From a bacterium (GTDB taxonomy: Bacteria > Vulcanimicrobiota > Xenobia > Xenobiales > JADMJV01), in contig JASBRJ010000092.1 of NCBI GenBank assembly GCA_030149525.1, forward strand, positions 1 through 41,305: a stretch of 41,305 nucleotides of DNA, in the 5' to 3' direction. This document shows positions 17,790-34,552 of the stretch, one piece after another. The translations under genes and the position numbers were made by a program. Within the stretch, counting starts at the first letter, position 1. Each line of letters starts with the position of its first letter. The notes beneath the pieces were generated by a model. It saw only the letters and a program-made list of their open reading frames with translations. It was not told the origin of the DNA and made no database searches.

Positions 17790-18563
17790 ATGAAATCGAA
17801 CCACGCTCTCGTCACCGGGGCAACATCGGGAATTGGATACGCCATGGCTCGTCGCCTGGTGGAACTGGGTTATCGAGTCAGTGTCAACGGACTCCTGGGG
17901 GAAGAAGACCCGAACGACTTCCTGATGAGTTTTGGAGACAGAGAGAGAGTGCGGTTCGCCGAGGCGGATCTGAGAAGCTCCCAGCCCATCGAGAAGATGA
18001 TGAAAGAGGCTAAGCAGGCCTTCGGACCCATCTCTGTTCTGGTCAATAACGCGGGCATTCAGCATGTGTCGCCGGTGGAAGACTTTGCGGTGGAAAAATG
18101 GGATGCCATTATCGCCATCAACATGAGTTCGGCCTTTCATACAATCCGGTTGGCGGTGCCGGACATGAAAGATCTGGGATGGGGTCGAATCATCAATCTC
18201 GCTTCAGCGCACGCCCTGGTGGCTTCCCCCTTCAAGACGGCCTACGTCTCGGCAAAGCATGGCGTGCTGGGTCTCACCAAGACCGTCGCTCTGGAACTTG
18301 CCAAGCACAACATTACCTGCACCGCAATTTGCCCCGGGTATGTGAAGACCCCTCTGGTGGAAAAGCAGATCCCCGACACGGCGAAAGCTCGAGGAATGAC
18401 CGAACAGGAGGTGGTCGAGAAGGTTCTTCTGGCGGCCCAGCCCACCGGAAAATTCGTGACTGTGGAACAGATCGCCGATGCTATGGAATTCCTGCTCTCC
18501 GACGGCGCGGCGAATATTACAGGTTCGGCTTTGTCGATAGATGGCGGTTGGATCGCTCAGTAA
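17790..18563 (+). CDS. bdhA: D-3-hydroxybutyrate dehydrogenase (SDR family)
   Basis: A 257-residue NAD-dependent short-chain dehydrogenase that would oxidise D-3-hydroxybutyrate to acetoacetate. It has the cofactor motif TGATSGIG, NNAGIQHVSPVE, and the catalytic residues Ser139, Tyr152 and Lys156 in ASAHALVASPFKTAYVSAKHG. The stretches NNAGIQHVSPVEDF and CPGYVKTPLVEKQ match the 3-hydroxybutyrate-dehydrogenase subfamily rather than generic SDRs. ATG 17790 is chosen (AAAGGG eight bases before); ATG 17787 and GTG 17781 are in frame. Neighbouring GntP permease supports a role in ketone-body or poly-hydroxybutyrate monomer use. The tail overlaps the opposing M14 gene by 47 bases. Confidence 0.93.
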   Translation: MKSNHALVTGATSGIGYAMARRLVELGYRVSVNGLLGEEDPNDFLMSFGDRERVRFAEADLRSSQPIEKMMKEAKQAFGPISVLVNNAGIQHVSPVEDFAVEKWDAIIAINMSSAFHTIRLAVPDMKDLGWGRIINLASAHALVASPFKTAYVSAKHGVLGLTKTVALELAKHNITCTAICPGYVKTPLVEKQIPDTAKARGMTEQEVVEKVLLAAQPTGKFVTVEQIADAMEFLLSDGAANITGSALSIDGGWIAQ

Positions 18564-19890
18564 CCTGTTTTAGGAAGGTCATGGCGGCCCGAACCCCTTT
18601 TTGAACGCCTAACTCACGTTTTGCGCCGGCAGGCTGAAAAGACGTTTCCAACTCCAGAACCATAGAAGTGATGCCCCTTTTTTTGGCTAGCTGAATCGAA
18701 GTTCCGGTGGTGGCTCCGTAGCTGTTGAGGTCGAGAACTTTGTAGTCGGGAAGCTCGGTGTTCAAGGCCTTGATGAGCGGCGAATTCTTGGCCAACTCTT
18801 GCTCGTCGGTCATGATCATCAGTTTTCCGTAGCCGTGGAGGTCGAGCCAATGCGTGATCTCTGAATGTTCGTCTAGAAAACGCTCAACCGCTTGCGACTC
18901 CGGTTCGGAGAGGGCGGACTTCCCGCGGAAAGAGGGAGAGCCCAGTCTGTCGGAGCCTCCTTTGTCGTCGGAGGTTGAGTGGGGGGAGTCTCCGGCCAGG
19001 CGCCATTCGGCGGAGTAATTTCGGTTAATATCCACTCCGTTGGCATTGGTTCGAACAGAAGGGTCCTCGGTTCTCGACTTCTCGTATCCGTCGGAGTTAT
19101 GAACCGGCATAATCCAGGCCGTCAATGTCTCGTGGAGTTGCGGCGTGTTGACAAGTTCTCGAGCTGTTTCCAAAGCCACTTGACCGGTGAGCCACTCTCT
19201 TGCGTGACTGAGCCCGGAGATAAAAGCGTGGTTGTCACCATGACCGATTCGCATGACCTGGATGTCGCGTCCCTCGCGAGTTTTTCCGATGGACAAGACT
19301 TTCACCAGGTCCGGACGTTCCCCGGCCAGGTCAAGCATGGCCTTCTGGTAGCCCTTGGAATCTAGATATTCGACGACCTGAGGGGGGATCTGTTTGGTCA
19401 GCCGATGGAACTGAAAGTCGAGAAGGCTGTCGTTTTCGTAACTGAGTTTCTTGGGAGCGGCCTCGCTGAGGATCTCATCGGGGGTGACGACAAAGTCGGC
19501 ATTGCCGTCGTAGAAGTTGGCCGTCTCATACTCGGAAGGGTCAACCCATCCCGTTAGAGACTGAGATTGGACTTGATAAACCTCGGCGGGGCCTTCGGGG
19601 CGGTCGAAACGGGCGGCAAAAGTCTTCAATTGCCCCGGAGAGGTAAGTTCCTCAGAGGTCTCTCTTTTGAGGCTGACTCTATCTTGATATTTGACTTCCA
19701 GCTCTCGGCTCACCAAAACCTTCTCACCGTTGGCCAGGCGGGTGGCCACTTCGTCGGCGCCGATGGCTTTGGAGCCTAGAAGAAATCTGGGTCGTCCAAA
19801 CCGAAAGGTCTCCGTGGCATTGTGGACGCCGTCCAGATTCCATCTGCGGTTGTTGCGAGCTATCAAATTCTGATACGAGGTGCCTGCCAT
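18517..19890 (-). CDS. M14 zinc carboxypeptidase with N-terminal EF-hand-like loop (copy 1)
   Basis: A 457-residue protein of the M14 family. An N-terminal region of unknown fold (1-120) is followed by a single 12-residue EF-hand-like loop with Asp128, Asn130, Asp132, Thr136 and Glu139. The M14 domain (about 155-445) has zinc ligands His229 and Glu232 in HAREW, His352 in DLHGYG, substrate-binding Asn289/Arg290 in DINRNY, and the catalytic Glu413 in VLELE. No signal peptide is visible at MAGTSYQ, so either export is non-Sec or the enzyme is intracellular. Cleavage of C-terminal residues or of peptidoglycan peptides are both possible. A paralogue lies at 20662-21912. Confidence 0.88.
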   Translation of the reverse strand: MAGTSYQNLIARNNRRWNLDGVHNATETFRFGRPRFLLGSKAIGADEVATRLANGEKVLVSRELEVKYQDRVSLKRETSEELTSPGQLKTFAARFDRPEGPAEVYQVQSQSLTGWVDPSEYETANFYDGNADFVVTPDEILSEAAPKKLSYENDSLLDFQFHRLTKQIPPQVVEYLDSKGYQKAMLDLAGERPDLVKVLSIGKTREGRDIQVMRIGHGDNHAFISGLSHAREWLTGQVALETARELVNTPQLHETLTAWIMPVHNSDGYEKSRTEDPSVRTNANGVDINRNYSAEWRLAGDSPHSTSDDKGGSDRLGSPSFRGKSALSEPESQAVERFLDEHSEITHWLDLHGYGKLMIMTDEQELAKNSPLIKALNTELPDYKVLDLNSYGATTGTSIQLAKKRGITSMVLELETSFQPAGAKRELGVQKGVRAAMTFLKQVTERSNRHLSTKPNL

Positions 19891-20003
19891 GACGTTATTG
19901 TAGTCTCAGGTCGTGAAAAGAGACTGATAGTTTCTCCCTTCGGATACCCGGCTTGACACCCTTGGGATGGAACCCTTGCAGCTAGCTCATGAGAAAGTAA
20001 AGT

Positions 20004-20669
20004 ATGAGCGAAATCTTGCCGGGACGAAAAGGAGCCCTTCTTCTTTGGGTTATGCTTCTGGGGGCCTTAGTGACAGGTCTGATGACCTATGATGTATCGC
20101 CCCTTCAACTGGCCCAACGACTCTCACTGATGGCGGAGAACGCATGGTGGGCCGGGCCTGTTTTTGTAATTTTCTTCGTGCTTCGAACCGTTACGTTTTT
20201 CTCCACAGCGGTTATGGCGGTTGCAGCAGGAGCTTTTTTTGGAGTTGGCTGGGGTAGCGTTCTCACCCTTGTGGGAGCGTTCCTGAGTGCCCTGCTGGGT
20301 CACTTCTTGGGTTCTTATTTTGATGTGGAGCATCTCTTCAGAGGTTCTCAGCGGATACGGAAATTTGCTCGAGGAACCCGGAGAAAGGGCTTCAAAGCTG
20401 TTTTGGTCGCCCATCTTGTCCACACGCCGTTTGACGTTGTCAATGTTTTGGCAGGCTCGCTCGGAGTGGATAAGCGGCCGTTTCTCAAGGCGGCCATGCT
20501 GGGTTCGCTGCCGGGATTTTTGGGTTTTGTCTTTCTCGGTCATTCCTCCGGTTTGTCCGAAGGCTCTCTTAACATTCAGCCGGCCTATCTGGTGGTGGCA
20601 ACTCTCTTGCTTCTTGTTTCCATTGCGTTTTCAGAATGGTTAAATCGTCGCAAGCGGTCCATCACTTGA
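20004..20669 (+). CDS. TVP38/TMEM64 (VTT/SNARE-associated) membrane protein
   Basis: A 221-residue membrane protein of the VTT (DedA-related) superfamily. It has an N-terminal TM helix (about 11-27), a re-entrant-type FSTAVMAVAAGAFFGVGWG segment (about residues 66-84) with the family's glycine-rich hairpin, SALLGHFLGSYF, and a C-terminal pair of TM helices. The family is linked to lipid scrambling and undecaprenyl-phosphate or phospholipid transport. The specific role here is unknown. It is flanked by the two M14 genes on the opposite strand and overlaps the second by eight bases. Confidence 0.85.
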   Translation: MSEILPGRKGALLLWVMLLGALVTGLMTYDVSPLQLAQRLSLMAENAWWAGPVFVIFFVLRTVTFFSTAVMAVAAGAFFGVGWGSVLTLVGAFLSALLGHFLGSYFDVEHLFRGSQRIRKFARGTRRKGFKAVLVAHLVHTPFDVVNVLAGSLGVDKRPFLKAAMLGSLPGFLGFVFLGHSSGLSEGSLNIQPAYLVVATLLLLVSIAFSEWLNRRKRSIT

Positions 20670-21912
20670 CCATATTGTATCTGTCGGGAACGATACGCTC
20701 GGGCAGGTTCCCCTCTTTTGACTCTTTCAGCAACTCGTCTACAAAAGTCATGTTGGCTCCGTGGAATCGCTCACTGGTGGAGGAGAGGACTGCAGGATCG
20801 GGTTGAAAGCAGTCGTTGATCTCCACCAGCATCCCCACGATTCCGTTGATGTATTGGATATCTAACCCAGAGCCGGAGATAGGATAAAGTCCGCAGGAGG
20901 TTTTTAGCTCCATGTCGCCCCCGGCGGCTTCGACCAGCTTGCCACCCAGGCGCCGAAAGAGGTCCCCGTGTTCAACATCGCCCTTGTGATAGCCCGGCGG
21001 GTAAACGAAGGATTCGCCGAACGAATGATAACTTAGAACTCCCCGGATGTTCGGGTTCCCTAGCTCCAATCTTTGCAGGGCATCGGTCTCAGCCTCGCTT
21101 CCACCGAACTCACCTCGATAAACCGGGCTCCAGGGCGCATCGTTACCGTTCTCAAAATCGTCTTGCCAGTGATTTGGCTTATCCCCTAGGGGGCGGAAAA
21201 TGAGGTTGCCCAGTTCCGAACCATCGCCGTAGTTGCGATTGATGTCGACACCCACCTCGAAAATGCGAGCGCCATTAACGACGGTGTCCACGGGAGCGCG
21301 ATTCTTGCGCCAAGTGTTGTCGACGTTTCGGCTGTACTCAAGGCCGTCGGCGTTGACAACGGGAGAGAACCACAATTCCGCACTCTCTAAGCGACGTACG
21401 TAGTCTTCCTCTCCGGCAGCATACTTTTCCAAAGTTTTTGCAGCGCTGTCGAAGACCACCTCGGCTGTCGACCACTCTCTGGCGTGCTCTAAACCTTTGA
21501 AGACGACACCAACCTTATGAGAACTGTCCTTTTTGGCGTCGGCGGTGACTCGAAGGGCGTAGATAGGGCGGCCTTCGGCAGTCTTTCCGAGCACCTTCAA
21601 TTCGCAGGCCTCCGGATATTTCTTAGCTAGACTTTTGAGGCCGGCCTCGACGTCTTCAAAACTGCGATACCCGTCTTTGGCAGGATTAGGGATTCCGGCA
21701 AGATGAAATTTGTTTTCGAAGAGTCGATTTTCTCGATTGTTTCCGAATTTGCTTTCCTCAGGGAGACCGTAGTAAAAAGCGATCTCGTCGTTTTTGAGAT
21801 AGCCGTTACCGTCCTTGTCGATGTTCTGCGCTTCGGTGGTCCTGTTGGGCGCAACCGTGACTGTTCGACCTTGATGATGGAATCGGTATGTCCGCGTGAG
21901 ATTCGTCTGCAT
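20662..21912 (-). CDS. M14 zinc carboxypeptidase with N-terminal EF-hand-like loop (copy 2)
   Basis: A 416-residue M14 enzyme. A canonical single EF-hand loop is visible at Asp32, Asp34, Asn36, Gly37, Tyr38, Lys40 and Glu43 (DKDGNGYLKNDE). The catalytic domain (about 80-400) contains His143 and Glu146 in HAREW, Asn225/Arg226 in DINRNY, His296 in SYHSFGE and Glu364 in MLVEIND. The N terminus (MQTNLTRTYRFH) carries no Sec signal. The EF loop sits about 100 residues before the zinc motif, as in copy 1, so the two probably share an ancestral layout. Calcium regulation is inference. It is the last gene of the minus-strand run that begins at 25171. Confidence 0.9.
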   Translation of the reverse strand: MQTNLTRTYRFHHQGRTVTVAPNRTTEAQNIDKDGNGYLKNDEIAFYYGLPEESKFGNNRENRLFENKFHLAGIPNPAKDGYRSFEDVEAGLKSLAKKYPEACELKVLGKTAEGRPIYALRVTADAKKDSSHKVGVVFKGLEHAREWSTAEVVFDSAAKTLEKYAAGEEDYVRRLESAELWFSPVVNADGLEYSRNVDNTWRKNRAPVDTVVNGARIFEVGVDINRNYGDGSELGNLIFRPLGDKPNHWQDDFENGNDAPWSPVYRGEFGGSEAETDALQRLELGNPNIRGVLSYHSFGESFVYPPGYHKGDVEHGDLFRRLGGKLVEAAGGDMELKTSCGLYPISGSGLDIQYINGIVGMLVEINDCFQPDPAVLSSTSERFHGANMTFVDELLKESKEGNLPERIVPDRYNMVK

Positions 21913-21987
21913 AATCCTGAACCTGGCTTCTCCTGCTTAGCATGAGAATACCCGGTACGTCTTAAAAAAAGCTGACGAAAGAGTTCT

Positions 21988-23031
21988 TCAGAGCGTGGCC
22001 ATAGTCACATTGTCGAAGGTCCCGTCGTAGAAAGACGAATATCTGACTTTGCGATCCAGCGCTTCCACCACGGCTGCAGAGAAGTTGACCCCTTCAAGCT
22101 TCTCCATGCCCTGGAGTCCACCGGGACAAAATACGTTGATCTCCATCAGTTTGTTTCCCACGATGTCGAGACCCACCAGGAACATGCCGTCTTTCACTAA
22201 CTTGGGGCGGACCATTTCGCAAATGTCCAGCATTTCGGTCGTGACCTCGGCCTTTTCAATGGTCCCACCGGCGTGCATGTTGCTTCGAATATCGTCGCCA
22301 CGGCGAACTCTTTGAAAAGCGGCATATTTCCCTTTCACCCTGAGTGGGCGGCCGTTCATCATGTAGAGCCGAACATCGCCCTTCTCCGCTGCGGTCAGGT
22401 ACTCCTGAGCAATGATAAACCCGTCTTTGAGGAGAGCTTCCACCATCTGGTTGAGATTGTAATTCGCGTCTTTCTTGACCATGAAAACGCCGTCCCCACC
22501 GGAGCCCTGCAACGGCTTGAGAATGAGATCCCCCTCCAGTTCCCTAGCAAAGTCTTTGATAGCATCCAGATCTCGCGTGATGAGGGTTTTGGGACGAACC
22601 GGCTCGGGGAACCCCTGGAAGTACATTTTATTGGTGGCCTGGTTGAGGCCGTCAGGGTCGTTGAGAACGATAATGCCTTCACGCACGGCCGCTCGACCGA
22701 AAGTGGTCCCGGCAGGCTTAGCCCAATTCTTGTCTCGACTGTACTTGGCTGGGTTGTCCCTCAACAGAAGAACGTCGAGTTCCGAACCGTCAATGGTCTG
22801 GCGGACCGGCTGCTCGGCGAGCTCTTTCATGAAGGTGTCGGAGGATTTGTAACGCTTTCTTGGCGGACTTATGACCCGGAGTCGGAGATGGTCGTGGGGG
22901 GTGTAAGTGAATCCCCCCGGAGTCAGAAAGAAAACTTCATGGCCGAGATTCAACGCTTCTCGAGCCAGCCTAATGGTTGTGTGATATGACTTTTTGACCT
23001 CGAAGTCGGTCACTAATATGCCGATTTTCAT
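21988..23031 (-). CDS. Glutathione-synthetase-like ATP-grasp enzyme
   Basis: A 347-residue enzyme resembling prokaryotic glutathione synthetase. The N-terminal GshB-like domain has a Rossmann-like MKIGILV start and LLRDNPAKY in place of the family's RxDPPF. The ATP-grasp domain (about 125-345) has KMYFQGFPEPVRPKTLITR, the ATP-binding KPLQGSGGDGVF, QEYL, GDVRL, SNMHAGG and the metal-binding EINVFCPGGL. The usual GshB ending NVTSPTG differs (NVFCPGG), so the substrate may not be gamma-glutamylcysteine. No gshA-like gene is in the window. Same strand as the Amj-like gene (64 bases upstream) and the M14 gene (75 bases downstream), so an operon is possible. Confidence 0.8.
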   Translation of the reverse strand: MKIGILVTDFEVKKSYHTTIRLAREALNLGHEVFFLTPGGFTYTPHDHLRLRVISPPRKRYKSSDTFMKELAEQPVRQTIDGSELDVLLLRDNPAKYSRDKNWAKPAGTTFGRAAVREGIIVLNDPDGLNQATNKMYFQGFPEPVRPKTLITRDLDAIKDFARELEGDLILKPLQGSGGDGVFMVKKDANYNLNQMVEALLKDGFIIAQEYLTAAEKGDVRLYMMNGRPLRVKGKYAAFQRVRRGDDIRSNMHAGGTIEKAEVTTEMLDICEMVRPKLVKDGMFLVGLDIVGNKLMEINVFCPGGLQGMEKLEGVNFSAAVVEALDRKVRYSSFYDGTFDNVTMATL

Positions 23032-23094: not shown

Positions 23095-24747
23095 TCAAAG
23101 GATTTGCGCAAGGATGTGAGCACCCGTTTCGATGACCCATCTGGCCGGTTCCAGCAGCACTTGGGAAAGGATCGTGCCTATCAGCATACTGATTATGAGG
23201 AGAATACCCATAGCGTAGACATCTTTCGCCGGTCTTTTCTCATCCAGGGTTTCCTGGGTTATCACCGCCGCCGTGGGATCGACGATGAGACCCAGGGCGA
23301 TAGTGGCAAAACCGTTGACCACGGAAGAGAGAAGGCTTGCCGTGCGCTCCAAGTCGGGAACGGCGGCTCCGGCGTAGACGGATGCCACCACTCCTACGGT
23401 GTGGATACCGATAACGAAGACATTGGCCAGGATGAAGGTTTTGGGAATCCTTTGAAAGTCGCTGACCGTTAGACCGAACATGGAGGGCCTTCGAAGGCAG
23501 CGGACCACGGCGCCCCAGTTGGAAGGGTTTAAGAGCGCGACCAGGACGGCGTGGATAGATCCCATTTTATCGGTCTTTTGGATGGCCTTGTCATAGACTT
23601 CCACGAGAGTCGGCATACAGAGCCAACTTAGGAACGCCCCTAGGCTCGAACCCATGAGCACCCAACGTAGACTGTGAGCGAGATCTGGTAGACCTAGCAA
23701 AGGATTTGAGACCACATGATCGGAGATAGCACCTATCATCGGAGCGAACACTTGTTGCCCCAGACGGGCGATGAGAAAGAAGAAATTGTAAACCGCCACA
23801 GCGGTGGCGGCCCGACTGGTTCTGACGGCAGAAATTCTGGATGTATACGTGGTTGAGGCCAGAAAGGCAAAGCTGAGGTTGAACAGCACGATGACCCAGA
23901 GGTGGTTGTTCATGGCCTCACCCTGTTCTCCTAGTGCTTTGGCGGCCACTCTGATGAGGGCGGCTGCGGGGTTTAACATCACCAGTCCGAGAACTCCACC
24001 GAGGAAGTTGCCCATAGCCAGGTGGACTGCGGTGATATCCACATGCTTTTCAGGACGTTCCCCTTTGATGGCCTGGTCGGTGATAACAGCGGCCTTCGGA
24101 TCGACCCAAACGGAGAAGGCGATGGCCGCGAAGGCGTTGACAAGGCCGGAGAGCAAGACGGCTGTTTGCTCCATTCCCGGTAACTCGGCGCTGACCAAAA
24201 GAGCTGCCATAACCCCAACGGTCCAGACCGCCGTGGCAAAGACGTTGGCCAGTAAGAATCCGGCAGGGATCCCGTCCAGGTGGAATAGCTTGACTCCGAG
24301 GTTGCTGGGCCGCCGGATCGCTCCCAGAATCACTTTCCAGGCCTGGGGCCGGGCCAGCCGCATCAAGGCGCGAGCCAGAGATTGACGATAGTCTAAACAC
24401 TGGATTCCCCGTCGGTAGATCTCCACAAATGTGCTCAGAAGAATCCAGCTGGCCAGCCCCCCGAGCGCTGAACCAAGAATGACCCAACGAAGCTGACCAG
24501 CCAGGATTCCAGTGCTGCCCGAGTTCGCTGCAGTATCGACGAACTTGGCCATCAAGGGGGCGTAGAATAGGTTGGCAAACCTGGTCAACATAAAGAAAAA
24601 GTTGGCCATGGTGAAGGCCAACATGACTTTGGAAGTCTTAACCGCCGCCGGTCGGGCGGCAATATTCAGGCTGGTGGCGAGAGCCACTACACCTGCGATG
24701 AAGGATATGAAGACCAGACTGGGGTCGGCTAATAAACTGAAATCCAC
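23095..24747 (-). CDS. Tandemly duplicated Amj-type lipid II flippase (double length)
   Basis: A 550-residue membrane protein formed of two Amj/DUF2837-like halves (about 1-275 and 280-550); single Amj proteins are about 270 residues. The halves repeat the same landmarks at an offset near 273: AVKTSK and AVRTSR, NFFFMLTRFAN and NFFFLIARLGQ, LRWVILGSALGG (from 87) and LRWVLMGSSLGA (from 360), LLANVF and ILANVF, and VDPKAAVITDQ (from 216) and VDPTAAVITQE. Amj is the alternate lipid II flippase found beside or instead of MurJ; its role here is inferred from family only. Each half has about six hydrophobic helices. ATG 24747. Confidence 0.8.
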   Translation of the reverse strand: MDFSLLADPSLVFISFIAGVVALATSLNIAARPAAVKTSKVMLAFTMANFFFMLTRFANLFYAPLMAKFVDTAANSGSTGILAGQLRWVILGSALGGLASWILLSTFVEIYRRGIQCLDYRQSLARALMRLARPQAWKVILGAIRRPSNLGVKLFHLDGIPAGFLLANVFATAVWTVGVMAALLVSAELPGMEQTAVLLSGLVNAFAAIAFSVWVDPKAAVITDQAIKGERPEKHVDITAVHLAMGNFLGGVLGLVMLNPAAALIRVAAKALGEQGEAMNNHLWVIVLFNLSFAFLASTTYTSRISAVRTSRAATAVAVYNFFFLIARLGQQVFAPMIGAISDHVVSNPLLGLPDLAHSLRWVLMGSSLGAFLSWLCMPTLVEVYDKAIQKTDKMGSIHAVLVALLNPSNWGAVVRCLRRPSMFGLTVSDFQRIPKTFILANVFVIGIHTVGVVASVYAGAAVPDLERTASLLSSVVNGFATIALGLIVDPTAAVITQETLDEKRPAKDVYAMGILLIISMLIGTILSQVLLEPARWVIETGAHILAQIL

Positions 24748-27462: not shown

Positions 27463-30400
27463 ATGAAAGACGACTATAAGGGAGTCGTGATCGGCATAGG
27501 AGCTTCAGCTGGAGGAATTCCTGCCTTGCTGACCATGCTCAAGGCCAAGCCATCTCTTCAGTGTGCCTTTATTGTCGTTTCTCACTTAGGAGAGGCTCGA
27601 AGCCATCTCGTCGAGACCCTGGCCTCTGCAGTCTCTTATCGAGTGGAATGGGCTTCCTACGGCAGAAGTCTCGAGCCCGGTACGGTTCTCGTTTCGCCCC
27701 CCCAACAAACAGTGGAGTTTTCCGAGGACGGAACACTCAAGCTTCGTCCTGTGGAGAAACCGGCCATGTTTCCCATCGACTCTTTCTTTCAGAGCCTGGG
27801 CGAACGGTTCGGCAAACGAGCTCTGGCCGTCGTGCTTTCCGGTGGAGGGAGTGACGGCAGTAACGGAGTCCGAACAGTCAAGCAAAAAGAAGGTTTGGTG
27901 ATCGTCCAGGAACCGGACACCTGTGAGTTTCCGGACATGCCTTGCAACTCTATACGCACGGGGATCGTGGACGAGATTCTGGCGCCCGGTCAGATCCTTG
28001 AGGTTATCCAGGGATACGATCGAAACCGTCATCTTGGGCTTCCTCCCGTGGACCTCGAAGAAGGCCGGATGGATTCCATTTTACAGAAGCTGTATCGGCT
28101 CACCGGTCACGACTTTTCTTGTTACAAGCCGGCCACGATTGGACGCCGCCTGGAGCGGCGGATGGGCCTGCTTTCCATCGACACCTTGAAGGCCTATGAA
28201 CAGCGTTTGGAAGAAGACCAGACGGAGGCTCAGAAGCTCGTCCATGAGCTTCGAATCGGAGTGACCAGTTTTTTTCGTGACCCGGAAATCTGGGATCACC
28301 TGGCTTCTGAGATTCTCGGGCCACTGGTGGATGAGAGGGATTGGAGATCGGTTTTAAGAGTGTGGGTGACCGCTTGTTCGAGCGGTGAGGAAGCCTACAC
28401 CGTAGCCTGTCTTCTGGCCGATCTCCTAGAAAGTAAAGAACGCCCTCTGAATTTTCAGGTTTTTGCCACCGATATTGATGGCGATGCACTGGCGCGGGGA
28501 AGAGAGGGGGTTTATACCATCAATCTTTTGTCCGATGTGCCGGAAAGGTTTCACCGCTATTTCGAAATTGAAGATTCCCACTTTCGAGCTCGAGACGTTC
28601 TTCGAGACCGGATTCTGTTCTCGTCCCACAACCTGATCACCGACCCTCCATTTTCGAACCTCGATCTGGTGTGCTGTCGCAATTTTCTCATCTATCTATC
28701 TCGTTCTACTCAGGACAGGTTAATGGGGATTCTCCACTATGCGCTTCAGGCAGACGGAGTGCTTGTACTTGGTACCAGTGAGAGTATTAGCGAAGCCGGG
28801 GCTCGTTTCACCAATCTATCGACCAAGCACCGGACCTATCGAAAGAACAAAGGAGTTCGGGGCAGTCTACCCGCCCTCACCTCGTTGGGTCATGAGGTGC
28901 GAATCGATGAAATTCAGCGCCTGAGTAGCCGCCAACAACCGACCTTCGACGAGATGGTCACCAGCACATTGATCCGGGCTTTCGTACCGGCCACTGTGCT
29001 TCTGAATCAAGATTACAGGATTCTTTATCACCAGGGAGACACCGATCTCTTCTTAACCTCTCCTCGAGGGTTACCTACTAACGAGCTGTTCAGTCTTTTG
29101 AGACCGGGTCTGGCTCCCACGGTTCGAGATGTCCTGGATACGGTTCGCGATTCGAAGTCGGAGGTTCGTGACCGAGCGGCACGTCTCAAGAAAGACGAGA
29201 CTCTCTCTCGGGTCCAGTTGTCGGCTTTTCCCGTTCACTCGAAACAGACGGAGGAAACTCTGATCGCGCTTTCCGTTCGTCGAGAAGTCTCCTCCGAGTT
29301 GTCGGCGGAAGTGGATATTCCGGAAGAGCACCAGCGGTTGGTGCAGCAACTCAGTGAAGAGTTAGCTTTGACGAGGCGCGAACTCGAGCAGGCTCTGGAG
29401 CAATCTTCCACCACCTACGATGCTCTTCGGGCGAACAATGAAGAGATGCTCTCCATGAACGAGGAGCTGCAGGCTAGCAATGAGGAGCTTGAGACCCACA
29501 AAGAAGAGTTGCAGGCGCTTAATGAAGAACTCTCCACGGTCAATAGCGAGCTGCGCGACTACGTGGGGCGCCTGGAGGACGCCAACAACGACCTTTCCAA
29601 CTTTGTCTCCGGCAGCGATGTGGCCACCCTTTTTCTCGATTCCGACCTCAGTATTCGACAATTCACACCGGCTATCGAAGGGATCTACGGGATTTCCGAA
29701 TCAGATCTGGGCCGTAAACTCAGCGTGTTCTCCTCCCCTGTGAAGGACCCGGAACTCTTTGAGGAGGCTTCTGCCGTCCTGACCGACCTCCAACGAAGAG
29801 AGGCAACTGTTGAACGCGATGACGGCCGCTGGTTTCTGCGACGGATTTCCCCTTATCGCACCCAAGAAGGACAGGTGGAAGGGCTGGTCCTAACCTATTC
29901 GGATATTACGGAGCTTGTGCGGGCCCAAAAAGCTCTTGCCGAGCAAGCCCAAAGCCTGGAACTCACCGTGGAAGAGCGGACTCGCGAGCTGAATTCTATT
30001 CTTGAGAACGCACCGGACGTCATTGCCCGTTTTGATAGAGAACTCAGGCATATCTTCGTGAACGCTAAGGCCGAGAAGATCACAGGGCTAAAAAAAGAGG
30101 ACTTCATCGGCAAAACCAACGTTGAATTGGGATGGCCTGAGGAGTTGAACCGACTGTGGGCTGAGAAGATGCACGAAGTTTTCGAGTCTGGAGAAGTCGT
30201 CGATGCCGCTTTCGATTTTTTCGACAAGAGTTTCCTGGCCCGAATCGTCCCGGAGTTCAATGATCAGGGCGAGGTTAAGACGATTCTCTGCATAACGCGG
30301 GACATGACGGAACTTCGCGAGGCTCAGAAAACCGTCGAGCGCAGTGAGCGTCGATTGAGGGCGACCTTCCAGCAAGCAGTAGTCGGATTCTGTCACTTGA

Positions 30401-31872
30401 GTCTTGACGGAGAGCTAATTCGCTCCAATCCGAAAGCCAGGGCGCTTCTGGAAATAACAAGCGATACGGCACAAAGAGTTCGTCTTGAAGAGCGCTTGCA
30501 TCCCGACGATGTGGAAGTCTTCAAGGTGGGCTTTCAGCGAGTCGCCCGAGGTCAGCTTGAGAGATTTGAGTCGGAGCTTCGTTGTGGGATCCGGGAGGGA
30601 CACCGATGGTTGCGGCTGACCCTTTCCTTGGTGTCTCACAATATTGAAGAGCAGCCCTATCTCTTCTTGGTAATAGAGGATATTCAGAGTCGTCGGCAGG
30701 CGGAACTTGAGACTGAATCTCTTAAGGAGAAGTTAGCTCAAGGCCAAAGGTTGGAGCAACTCGGTCTCATGGCAGGCGGAGTGGCCCACGATTTCAACAA
30801 TCTTCTAGTGGGGATCGTCGGCTCGGCCAGTCTCGCTCTTGAGAATCTGCCTGAGGGTTCCCCTGTCTATCAAGATGTTGAGATGGTTCTGGAGGCGGGC
30901 CGTCGAGCCGGAGACCTCGCCCGTCAGATGCTGGCCTACGCCGGTAAAGCGACCGTGGAGGTTGTTCCGGTCGATCCCGGGCAAGCCATCGAGGAGATGA
31001 TTCCTCTCTTGAACTGCCTTTCCCGGAACGGCTCTAAAGTGGAGGCGGAGATTTCGGAAGTCGACTGCTGCGTGCGACTGGACAGCACTCAGTTCCACGA
31101 AGCCATGACGAATCTTGTTGTCAACGCTTCCGAATGCTACGGACCGGAAGGTGGACGGATCCTTATTCGATTTGACTGCGTGCCTACTCCTGAGGATGAG
31201 CCGGAGTCTTTTCAGGTCTTCCCCGAGTCGGAACTGAGTAAAAAGTATGCGCGGGTGAGAGTTTCCGATCAGGGTCCGGGCATGACTCAAGAGGTTCTAG
31301 ATAGAATCATGGACCCGTTTTACTCCACCAAAAGTGACGGTCGCGGTCTTGGGGTGCCGATGGTGGTCGGTTTTACCAAAGCCCACAACGGTCTGCTTCG
31401 AGTCATGTCTTCTCCGGGATTGGGGACGACTTTCGAAATCCTCATTCCCTGTTTAGAAGGCAAGGCAAGCTCGCCGTCTGCAAGTTCCGAGGTTCGAACC
31501 ATCTCTCGACAATTTTCCGGCGACGCACTGGTAGTGGACGACGAGGAATTGGTGCGGGTCCTCATGTCCCGTCAGTTGCAGCGACTTGGTTTGCAAGTGA
31601 CTCTAGCTCTGAACGGGACACAGGCCATTGAGATTGGATCTCGACGCAGTTTCGATTTGGTCATCCTGGACCTAAGCATGCCGGATATCGGGGGGGCGGA
31701 GGTCCTCCAGGCGCTCCGGGAGCACCATCCTGAGCTTCCGGTTGTTATTTCGAGCGGCTATGACCGTGAGGAAGTTCTTGATCGGCTACCCCGTGACGAG
31801 AACATCGCTTTCTTGCCGAAACCCTATTCCATCATACAGCTCTACGGTGTGGTAGAGAATCTCATCGGCTAA
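27463..31872 (+). CDS. CheB-CheR-PAS-histidine kinase-receiver hybrid (1469 residues)
   Basis: A giant cytoplasmic signalling protein. Domain order: CheB methylesterase (about 1-190) with Ser15 in GASAGG, His41 and Asp131 in SGGGSDG; CheR methyltransferase (about 205-460) with YKPATIGRRLERR, RIGVTSFFRDP and VWVTACSSGEEAY; a coiled coil (about 625-710); PAS domains (about 715-830, 850-965, 970-1080); a histidine kinase with His1109 in GGVAHDFNNLL; HATPase with DQGPGM and GRGLGVP; and a C-terminal receiver with Asp1359/Asp1360 and phospho-acceptor Asp1403. There is no transmembrane segment and no receptor gene beside it, so its input is unknown. GAGGGGAGAG gives a strong ATG start. A single gene between the Qng1 and porin genes. 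Confidence 0.9.
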   Translation: MKDDYKGVVIGIGASAGGIPALLTMLKAKPSLQCAFIVVSHLGEARSHLVETLASAVSYRVEWASYGRSLEPGTVLVSPPQQTVEFSEDGTLKLRPVEKPAMFPIDSFFQSLGERFGKRALAVVLSGGGSDGSNGVRTVKQKEGLVIVQEPDTCEFPDMPCNSIRTGIVDEILAPGQILEVIQGYDRNRHLGLPPVDLEEGRMDSILQKLYRLTGHDFSCYKPATIGRRLERRMGLLSIDTLKAYEQRLEEDQTEAQKLVHELRIGVTSFFRDPEIWDHLASEILGPLVDERDWRSVLRVWVTACSSGEEAYTVACLLADLLESKERPLNFQVFATDIDGDALARGREGVYTINLLSDVPERFHRYFEIEDSHFRARDVLRDRILFSSHNLITDPPFSNLDLVCCRNFLIYLSRSTQDRLMGILHYALQADGVLVLGTSESISEAGARFTNLSTKHRTYRKNKGVRGSLPALTSLGHEVRIDEIQRLSSRQQPTFDEMVTSTLIRAFVPATVLLNQDYRILYHQGDTDLFLTSPRGLPTNELFSLLRPGLAPTVRDVLDTVRDSKSEVRDRAARLKKDETLSRVQLSAFPVHSKQTEETLIALSVRREVSSELSAEVDIPEEHQRLVQQLSEELALTRRELEQALEQSSTTYDALRANNEEMLSMNEELQASNEELETHKEELQALNEELSTVNSELRDYVGRLEDANNDLSNFVSGSDVATLFLDSDLSIRQFTPAIEGIYGISESDLGRKLSVFSSPVKDPELFEEASAVLTDLQRREATVERDDGRWFLRRISPYRTQEGQVEGLVLTYSDITELVRAQKALAEQAQSLELTVEERTRELNSILENAPDVIARFDRELRHIFVNAKAEKITGLKKEDFIGKTNVELGWPEELNRLWAEKMHEVFESGEVVDAAFDFFDKSFLARIVPEFNDQGEVKTILCITRDMTELREAQKTVERSERRLRATFQQAVVGFCHLSLDGELIRSNPKARALLEITSDTAQRVRLEERLHPDDVEVFKVGFQRVARGQLERFESELRCGIREGHRWLRLTLSLVSHNIEEQPYLFLVIEDIQSRRQAELETESLKEKLAQGQRLEQLGLMAGGVAHDFNNLLVGIVGSASLALENLPEGSPVYQDVEMVLEAGRRAGDLARQMLAYAGKATVEVVPVDPGQAIEEMIPLLNCLSRNGSKVEAEISEVDCCVRLDSTQFHEAMTNLVVNASECYGPEGGRILIRFDCVPTPEDEPESFQVFPESELSKKYARVRVSDQGPGMTQEVLDRIMDPFYSTKSDGRGLGVPMVVGFTKAHNGLLRVMSSPGLGTTFEILIPCLEGKASSPSASSEVRTISRQFSGDALVVDDEELVRVLMSRQLQRLGLQVTLALNGTQAIEIGSRRSFDLVILDLSMPDIGGAEVLQALREHHPELPVVISSGYDREEVLDRLPRDENIAFLPKPYSIIQLYGVVENLIG

Positions 31873-31936: not shown

Positions 31937-34552
31937 CTAGAACTTCAGCGAGAAGTTGGACATCACTTGGATGCCTTCCCAGCTGAAAGGGTGCGCGGTA
32001 TGAGTGCCGGCAGCCACATTCAAGGCAGGTAGGGAGGGGGAGGCGGTGACATTCGCGGGCATATTGTCCGTCATCGAATAGTACTTGAAGTTGATGTCCC
32101 AGTTGGTCTTCTCGGAGATTTCCCAGTTAACACCGAGTTCGGGAATGTGCTGGGTGACATCCCAGGTGTTGGACCGGGTCTGTCCTGTCGCAGCGGCGTA
32201 GTTGTTGTAGACGCCGAAGGGGTCGATGTGTCCGAAGACATCCAGTTGCGTGTAGGCGGCTTTCAGCGACACATCGGGGGTCACTTCGTAGCCTACTCCC
32301 ACATTCCAACCGCGGATAGTGAAGTCCACGTAGTTCTGGTTTTCCCCTCGAAGACCGTTGGGTCCGCCGAGCAGAGTGGCCAGGTTACTACCTCGGGTCC
32401 AGTTGTAGTTCAAGAACAAACCGGACAGGGTCACGCCGCGATTTTCTTCCTCATCGGTAATCCATTTGTGGCTACCGATGACGGTGAAGTGCTCAAGGTT
32501 ACCTTTGGGGTTTTCCAAGGGTACAGCCAGTGAGTTTCCACCGGAAGCAGCGAAGGTGAAGGGTGACAATCCTAGGAAGACGGGGTCGGTGAATCCGGGG
32601 GAGAAGCCCAGCACAGGAGTGTTAGGGGTTCCCGCGCCCAGCGAATTGGTTCCGAAACGAACGTCCTGGAGAGAAGTCTCCACTTGATCCAGGTTTCCGT
32701 AGTGGAACGCAAGACTACCGTGCTCATTGAACTTCCAGTTGATTTTAGCCCTGATACCTTCACGGTTGTGAGGGTAGGTGGCTGTGTCGTGGAGGGAGTA
32801 GGTATTCCAGAACTGATTGAGATCCGGAATACGCCAGTTGGGCTGGGTGATTCCACCGACGGTGGGATACTGCAGCACGAAGGGGTCGTAAGTGGGATCC
32901 ACTGAGATGTAGTGGAGGTCGACGTCCAGTTTGTCTTTGAAAAACTTGGCGCCTGCACCCACTCGGAAGAGGTCACCGTCTACACTGTAGCCGGAGTTCT
33001 TCGAGGGACGGTATTCCGAGTGAGAGTACTCACCGTAGAGATGAGGACTGAACTCGTTGTCCCAGGTATAGTCGGCAGCGATTCCATAGCTGGTTTGAGT
33101 TTGTGGTCCGATGCCACCCACGTTAAGGGTGCCGGGCACTCCGGTGATGCCGTCCGTTGCGCCTGCCATGACCACGGGTCGAACGTCGCTGGTGGAACCG
33201 ATTCCGCCGAGTTGACCGGCGTTGAGTTGGTTGGTGTAGAATCCGTTAGGGTTCACCCATTGAGAAACCAGGTTGGGAAACTGGATAAGACCGGTTCCCA
33301 ACGGGGCTCCGCCTGAGGCATCCTGACCGGCGTGCAAGAAGTTCAATCGAACCAGTCCACGATCTTCGTGGAAGTGCAGGCCCACAGTTCCACCCTCGGC
33401 GTGGGTGAAGTAGTTGTCGGAGTTCACCAGGGAAACGTTGCCGTCGGGCAGACGAGTTCCCATGACCTCCCAGCTCAGAGCCAGAGGTTTTTCGCCTTCT
33501 TCGAAAGCGTGCTTTCCGGAAACCTGAAACCCATAGTTCCAAAGCGATGCCGGCCCGGTAGGGTTGGGATTGGGAACGGGCGTAAAGACAGAGCTGCTGT
33601 AGTCGGTGGAGCCGAAGCTACCAACCCGGAGTTTGGTTCCGGAGGGCTTGTGCTTGACCCAGAAGTTGTCCAGGGTCATACGAGTGAAGGGCGTGTTGTT
33701 GAGGGGCTGTACGCCCGCTCCTGCAAGACCCACACCGGTTGATGTGGTTCCCGTAAACGCGTTGGATTGATAGGGAGCAGAGAGCCCCCAGAAGGCATCG
33801 ACCACCTGATCTCCTTGAGAGGAGAAGGCCACAAATTCGACTCCGGCGTCAATGTCGTCGGTGACTTTGACGTTGAGTCCGAGCAGAGCTTTTGTGGTGA
33901 AGGTCGTGCCGTTAGTCAGCGGAGTTCCGGTCAGCCAGTTGGTGACGGTAGGAACACCGGTGATAAAGTAGTTTTGAGGCAGTCCGGCAATAGGAGACGG
34001 AGCGCCCACAACACCACCGGCACCAAGAGTTGAGCCCACGGCGTCGTTGTAGTTGATGGAATCGACCACGATACCGGGGTTGGTGCTTCTCATGGAGTCG
34101 GCGCCGTTGTTGTTAAAACTCTGGCCTCCTACCCTCACGTTCACCTCACCGTAGAAGCTGATTCGCTCCAGTTCGGTGACCCGAAGATCGAGTCGGTCAA
34201 CGTTCTCTTCGAGATTGGTGACTCTCACCCCGAGAGCATCCAACTCCTCGCGCAATGCGTTGGCGAGTTTTCGAACTTCGTCCAGCTCCGCTTTGGTAGC
34301 GAAGGTGGCGTGTTCATTTTCCATTTTGGAAAGAAGACGAGCCACAACCATGGCCACTTCCCAGCGGCTGGCAGCTCGGTCTCCTTTAAAAGTGCCGTCC
34401 GGATATCCCTCGACCAGGCCTTTGGCAGCGAGTGCTGCTACGGCATCCTTAGCCCAATGGGCGTCGGGAACATCAGGGAATAAAGGGGCGGCAAATCCGG
34501 CCATCGTTGTGGCCAGAGCAAAGCATAATACTTTCTGTTTCAATTTCCTCAC
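31937..34552 (-). CDS. SLH-domain outer-membrane porin
   Basis: An 871-residue outer-membrane protein. It has a Sec signal peptide (MRKLKQKVLCFALATTMAGF), then an S-layer-homology domain (about 25-80) with FPDVPDAHWAKDAV and GYPDGTFKGDRAASRWEVA, a coiled-coil stalk (about 85-130; TKAELDEVRKLANAL then LDLRVTELE), and a C-terminal beta-barrel (about 135-871) ending in the typical aromatic strand MSNFSLKF. In diderm Terrabacteria-type lineages the SLH domain tethers the barrel to the peptidoglycan, standing in for Lpp/Pal/OmpA tethers. GTG 34552 is the start, with GGGAGG five bases upstream. It is one of the largest genes in the window and the clearest taxonomic hint. Confidence 0.9.
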   Translation of the reverse strand: MRKLKQKVLCFALATTMAGFAAPLFPDVPDAHWAKDAVAALAAKGLVEGYPDGTFKGDRAASRWEVAMVVARLLSKMENEHATFATKAELDEVRKLANALREELDALGVRVTNLEENVDRLDLRVTELERISFYGEVNVRVGGQSFNNNGADSMRSTNPGIVVDSINYNDAVGSTLGAGGVVGAPSPIAGLPQNYFITGVPTVTNWLTGTPLTNGTTFTTKALLGLNVKVTDDIDAGVEFVAFSSQGDQVVDAFWGLSAPYQSNAFTGTTSTGVGLAGAGVQPLNNTPFTRMTLDNFWVKHKPSGTKLRVGSFGSTDYSSSVFTPVPNPNPTGPASLWNYGFQVSGKHAFEEGEKPLALSWEVMGTRLPDGNVSLVNSDNYFTHAEGGTVGLHFHEDRGLVRLNFLHAGQDASGGAPLGTGLIQFPNLVSQWVNPNGFYTNQLNAGQLGGIGSTSDVRPVVMAGATDGITGVPGTLNVGGIGPQTQTSYGIAADYTWDNEFSPHLYGEYSHSEYRPSKNSGYSVDGDLFRVGAGAKFFKDKLDVDLHYISVDPTYDPFVLQYPTVGGITQPNWRIPDLNQFWNTYSLHDTATYPHNREGIRAKINWKFNEHGSLAFHYGNLDQVETSLQDVRFGTNSLGAGTPNTPVLGFSPGFTDPVFLGLSPFTFAASGGNSLAVPLENPKGNLEHFTVIGSHKWITDEEENRGVTLSGLFLNYNWTRGSNLATLLGGPNGLRGENQNYVDFTIRGWNVGVGYEVTPDVSLKAAYTQLDVFGHIDPFGVYNNYAAATGQTRSNTWDVTQHIPELGVNWEISEKTNWDINFKYYSMTDNMPANVTASPSLPALNVAAGTHTAHPFSWEGIQVMSNFSLKF

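Follow-up and report, generated by a model that had tools for sequence, protein, structure and literature searches.

A single chain of two diverged Amj units: ancient fusion in part of the Eremiobacterota and putative built-in flippase pair

Can two units of the lipid II flippase Amj be joined in a single protein, and if so, how would such a chain be built and what would it do? The question is raised by one locus in a DNA stretch of 41,305 nucleotides (the window), contig C220 of a 97%-complete genome of 8.27 Mb from the phylum Eremiobacterota, now Vulcanimicrobiota. A first-pass annotation had placed a double-length Amj at positions 23095-24747. An ORF of 550 codons is indeed present there, though on the minus strand, running from a GTG at 24747 to a stop at 23095; the plus-strand frame over the same interval is interrupted by many stops. 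The features of the gene are collected in Table 1.

Table 1. Features of the double Amj gene in the window (base coordinates of the two helix 5 segments were converted from residue numbers by hand)
Feature	Position	Strand	Description
Double Amj gene	23095..24747	-	550 aa from a GTG start, coordinates including the stop; two-stretch PF10997 match of 417.5 bits; model pLDDT 87.7, pTM 0.83
N-terminal Amj half, residues 1-276	23920..24747	-	PF10997 206.3 bits; N-half clade 100/99
C-terminal Amj half, residues 277-550	23098..23919	-	PF10997 217.4 bits; C-half clade 100/100
N-half signature, helix 5 and 5-6 loop, residues S200-D224	24076..24150	-	S200, D216, P217 conserved in singles and both halves
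C-half counterpart, residues S474-Q498	23254..23328	-	S474, D490, P491 conserved

We observed that residues 22-272 align with residues 294-546 with 95 of 253 positions identical (38%), 141 of 253 similar and 2 gaps (BLAST E 8e-57), so that the internal duplication proposed at an offset of about 273 residues was recovered at an offset of 272-274. The halves scored 444 in a BLOSUM62 local alignment, and 500 shuffles of the second half never gave more than 67. In Pfam, the whole protein matched Amj (PF10997, formerly DUF2837; cut-off 27 bits) and no other family. When the halves were scored separately on the genome, the N half covered profile positions 4-251 and the C half positions 8-250 of 253. 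Each half thus spans nearly the entire profile and corresponds to a complete Amj, as the annotation had proposed; the outcomes it had named as contrary, halves unlike Amj or a different transporter family of such length, were looked for, and Pfam returned Amj alone. The protein had no match in NCBIfam, no match to the MurJ profiles PF03023 and TIGR01695 at E up to 1, no ATPase domain in Pfam and no chain related by sequence in the PDB. Within one Amj unit, a profile comparison of helices 1-3 with helices 4-6 scored 24.2 (probability 25%), a score reached by 0 of 150 column shuffles and by 3 of 150 hydropathy-preserving shuffles, a weak hint that the unit itself may carry a 3+3 repeat.

The predicted structure of the whole chain shows the same order of helices in the two halves. 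Long helices are modelled at residues 9-38, 41-76, 79-102, 162-188, 200-227 and 234-273 of the N half and at residues 283-310, 313-347, 353-376, 436-462, 474-501 and 507-549 of the C half. Similarly, the model of a single Amj folds into six long helices (pLDDT 87.9), and the family trait of six predicted transmembrane helices per unit is found in both halves. Since this number is even, the two units are expected to face the same way across the membrane. In each half the basic residues cluster in loops 1-2 and 3-4, and the positive-inside rule then suggests that both termini of the protein are outside and that the halves share one orientation. With Foldseek, neither the double nor the single model had a match at E <= 0.001. 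A second aligner ranked MFS proteins first for the double model (best FLVCR1, Z 10.5, rmsd 4.2 over 295 residues) whereas the best rows for the single model were ABC exporters (Z up to 8.4, there with rmsd 7.3 over 161 residues; rmsd mostly 5-8). Helical bundles can reach Z 13 through their common arrangement, and both scores fall below this. The two results disagree and neither rises above the tool's noise level for helical bundles, so that no fold is claimed, and the protein may be related to a family outside these lists. Separately, insertions of a few dozen residues between helices 3 and 4 were seen in two N halves (L089 and L091, genomes G141 and G144) and in two single Amj of family f7 (L071 and L072, genomes G006 and G008).

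We then consider where the double form occurs. Amj was found in 142 of the 149 genomes of the phylum, including 85 of 85 among the better genomes, and 7 genomes had no Amj match. The double form was assigned to 22 of the 149 genomes and 8 of 16 families: every one of the 17 genomes with Amj in the window's class (families f1-f4), together with five further genomes (G001, G003, G005, G010 and G014) from families f5, f6, f9 and f13. The double ORF is complete in 18 of these 22; it is frame-broken in G139 and runs off contig ends in G147, G148 and G132. The two-unit layout was retained in all 19 complete copies aligned. Examined loci and the match table gave single units in the other eight families (f7, f8, f10-f12, f14-f16), and long open frames of 457-784 aa from single-Amj genomes held one Amj only in the four checked. 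The window's own genome carries a second double Amj, on contig C340, about 50% identical to the window's copy. Contamination was rejected as its source: its GC content (0.550, window 0.548) and its tetranucleotide correlation to the window (0.954) are like those of the window itself, whose two halves correlate at 0.958, while seven related loci reach only 0.52-0.71.

An initial scan of genome contigs with the double Amj protein alone as query gave no match. Scanning a collection of 84,980 species with two peptide patterns returned 20 double-Amj contigs, all equal in length to contigs already drawn from the phylum, and hence none elsewhere. Of 398 Bacillota genomes sampled, 76 carry Amj, and no match among these 76 spanned both halves of a 550-position double profile; as a positive control, a known double genome matched it over positions 1-547. 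Within the searches made, the double form is thus restricted to one phylum. The architecture search called for in the first-pass annotation accordingly found it stable and ancient in part of the Eremiobacterota and absent from the Bacillota sample. No description of a double Amj was found in the literature searched, where most papers were judged by their listing. As a separate observation, three single-Amj genomes each encode two diverged one-unit Amj proteins, on separate contigs and at different places in the tree (L111/L112 in G029, L119/L120 in G052, L116/L117 in G126); these could possibly be a two-chain version of an asymmetric pair.

The history of the fusion was read from a maximum-likelihood tree that combined 19 N halves and 19 C halves with 36 singles, 74 domains in all. 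All 19 N halves fell in one clade (support 100/99) and all 19 C halves in another (100/100); the two clades show, in outline, a like order of families. All 36 singles lay across one branch (96/92) from the joined N and C halves. With the N halves in one clade and the C halves in another, the tree points firmly to a single ancient fusion of two Amj units, inherited since. The nearest singles also come from this phylum, from families f8, f10, f11 and f12. A duplication just before the fusion, with the N and C halves as closest kin to each other, is the favoured origin, though trees grouping the C or the N halves with these singles were not rejected either (AU p 0.143 and 0.0605).

Both halves carry marks of selection. 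Among 49 columns that are at least 85% conserved in the 36 singles, both halves retain 22 and neither retains 13, with 11 found in the C half only and 3 in the N half only; invariant columns (at least 95%) number 43 in the N halves and 38 in the C halves. Conserved residues of the family present in both halves are R32/R304, R56/R328, G96/G370, N168/N442, G178/G452, S200/S474, D216-P217/D490-P491 in the 5-6 loop and G250/G524. Other positions are fixed differently between the halves in nearly all 19 sequences: G201/S475, A208/T482, A171/V445 and W175/H449. The N half fixes N59, Y62, W175 and A208, and the C half fixes Y320-N321, Q332, G479, T482 and Q529, position 449 being mostly H. The window's C half carries Q498 where nearly all other sequences carry D. 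Conserved and differently fixed residues together indicate that both halves are under strong selection and have nevertheless diverged. At the level of sequence, the halves thus form a fixed asymmetric pair, in which divergence came without decay of either half. The annotation had offered two options, an Amj that acts as a dimer or halves that took on separate roles as they diverged, and the data are compatible with both.

Pathway context was examined across the same 149 genomes. A MurG match was present in 146 (302 bits in the window's genome) and MurJ (TIGR01695 above cut-off) in 98. MurJ was not found in the window's 97%-complete genome, where three weak matches were rejected as MATE transporters, all exceeding the TIGR00797 cut-off. 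MurJ accompanies the double form in 1 of 22 genomes and the single form in 93 of 119 (Fisher 4e-11), a contrast that is not independent by family and amounts to 1 of 8 double versus 3 of 8 single families. The 119 include a few genomes with Amj fragments only (e.g. G112 and G054), and one genome with an Amj fragment (G004) was excluded from both groups. Nor is absence of MurJ above cut-off confined to double-Amj genomes: it extends to the remaining 26 of the 119 single-Amj genomes. Double Amj and MurJ (288 bits) occur together in G014 (family f13), and double Amj occurs with a sub-cut-off MurJ-like protein (155 bits) in G140 (family f2). The singles nearest to the doubles are also from genomes without MurJ, three of four of which are less than 90% complete; MurJ absence is thus probably a trait of the wider branch and predates the fusion. 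Loss of MurJ as the cause of the fusion was rejected on the family contrast and on its absence from the nearest single-Amj families.

What might the double protein do? According to two papers, B. subtilis Amj rescues E. coli lacking MurJ and works in a colicin M assay (PMC4683061, PMC4790310). Amj is described with six helices and is placed by a review outside the MOP superfamily (PMC4683061), and a 2015 review records the hypothesis that the six-helix protein dimerises to form a channel (PMC4790310). From its membership of the family, we infer that the double Amj would be a lipid II flippase. The reading that we consider probable, with appreciable doubt, is that two six-helix units make one twelve-helix chain, a built-in two-fold pair with a shared cavity. 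A simple model would be the following. A single fusion in an Eremiobacterota ancestor would have joined two amj units, most probably newly duplicated, and the fused units would have diverged to complementary, unequal roles, both under strong constraint. With both six-helix units the same way up, the chain would form a two-fold pair, and the undecaprenyl-pyrophosphate-linked precursor, presumably lipid II, would be carried through the cavity between them. Each unit would have its conserved arginines and its VDPxA...D loop near the cytoplasmic entrance. Ordinary single-domain Amj may use the same mechanism as a homodimer. In this model the flipping activity, the lipid II substrate, the cavity between the halves and the homodimer of single Amj are all presumed. 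Weighing against it are the MurJ absence shared with many single-Amj genomes, the co-occurrence of double Amj with MurJ in G014 and with a MurJ-like protein in G140, the structural comparison, which singled out no fold, the Q498 of the window's C half and a published case against Amj and MurJ as the sole exporters (PMC12096821). A natural covalent pair supports the dimer hypothesis for Amj, short of proof.

Other explanations can be weighed against the same data. Each Amj unit might be a full flippase alone, the fusion tying together independent transporters for dosage or equal expression; the most conserved residues are indeed kept in both halves (22 of 49 columns) and the single Amj model folds confidently alone. 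Yet the four positions fixed differently between the halves would be unexpected for equal units, and the layout has been kept in every complete copy aligned, so that we give this explanation little chance. That one half has lost transport and become a regulatory or scaffold unit appears highly improbable. Singles are indeed more like the C half: along the double profile it is the C part that most Bacillota Amj match, and the C half alone retains 11 conserved columns, the N half alone 3; the N half is nevertheless as rich in invariant columns as the C half and retains R32, R56, N168, S200, D216-P217 and R231.

The double Amj could alternatively have moved to another polyprenyl-linked substrate, such as a surface glycan precursor or a recycled carrier, with lipid II passing via e.g. 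SEDS proteins. Two substrates would explain the two double Amj of about 50% identity in the window's genome, and 13 of the 49 columns conserved in singles are altered in both halves. Moreover, a 2025 paper questions whether MurJ and Amj are the sole exporters and argues for lipid II export without either in B. subtilis (PMC12096821). On the other side, no other form of Amj was found in the eight double families, where MurG is present and MurJ mostly absent, leaving the double protein in most of them as the sole candidate of MurJ or Amj type. A change of substrate therefore seems unlikely to us. The built-in lipid II flippase pair remains our preferred reading. A bolder version of it, tentative and on balance doubtful, is that in this deep Eremiobacterota branch, mostly without MurJ, a covalent Amj heterodimer exports lipid II with specialised halves, for example one that takes up lipid II at the cytoplasmic leaflet and another that releases it.

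The neighbourhood of the gene was also inspected. Directly downstream on the same strand lies a gene for a glutathione-synthetase-like ATP-grasp protein (NF009110, 432 bits), followed by one for an M14 zinc carboxypeptidase (both within 18517-23031, minus strand); a second M14 enzyme is encoded beyond a gene for a VTT-domain (PF09335) membrane protein (20004-20669, plus strand), about 2.4 kb from the double amj. The ATP-grasp and M14 genes are possibly a peptide-modifying cluster. VTT/DedA proteins include undecaprenyl-phosphate recyclers, and carrier export and return could thus be near neighbours at the window locus. At six other double loci, 10 hand-picked neighbouring proteins included no common partner and no VTT domain (0 of 10). 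Further away in the window are an SLH-domain protein of 871 aa (31937-34552, minus strand) and a chain of 1469 aa (27463-31872, plus strand), judged by eye to be a putative CheB-CheR-PAS-histidine kinase-receiver fusion.

If the bolder version of the proposed pair is right, a transporter that is symmetric elsewhere would have turned asymmetric here, and ordinary Amj would be an obligate dimer with a shared cavity. A naturally fixed pair permits a direct test of the dimer, as each half can be mutated separately, and a twelve-helix protein without symmetry should suit structure work better than a 30-kDa subunit. In this lineage an Amj may also be the chief dedicated flippase for lipid II, a point relevant to the dispute about which proteins move that precursor.

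Compared with known systems, the double Amj would share its substrate and role with MurJ (MviN) of the MOP superfamily, while no sequence relation to MurJ was found in Pfam or NCBIfam. The MFS and the membrane domains of ABC exporters are likewise built of six-helix bundles, 6+6 helices as in the double Amj. MFS proteins have the orientation opposite to N-out; the double Amj is predicted to be N-out and would thus differ from them in this respect. Amj (YdaH) of Bacillus subtilis is like each half, with the full PF10997 profile and six predicted helices; in the Bacillota sampled the match is to one unit only, whereas here two diverged units are carried in a single chain of 550 residues.
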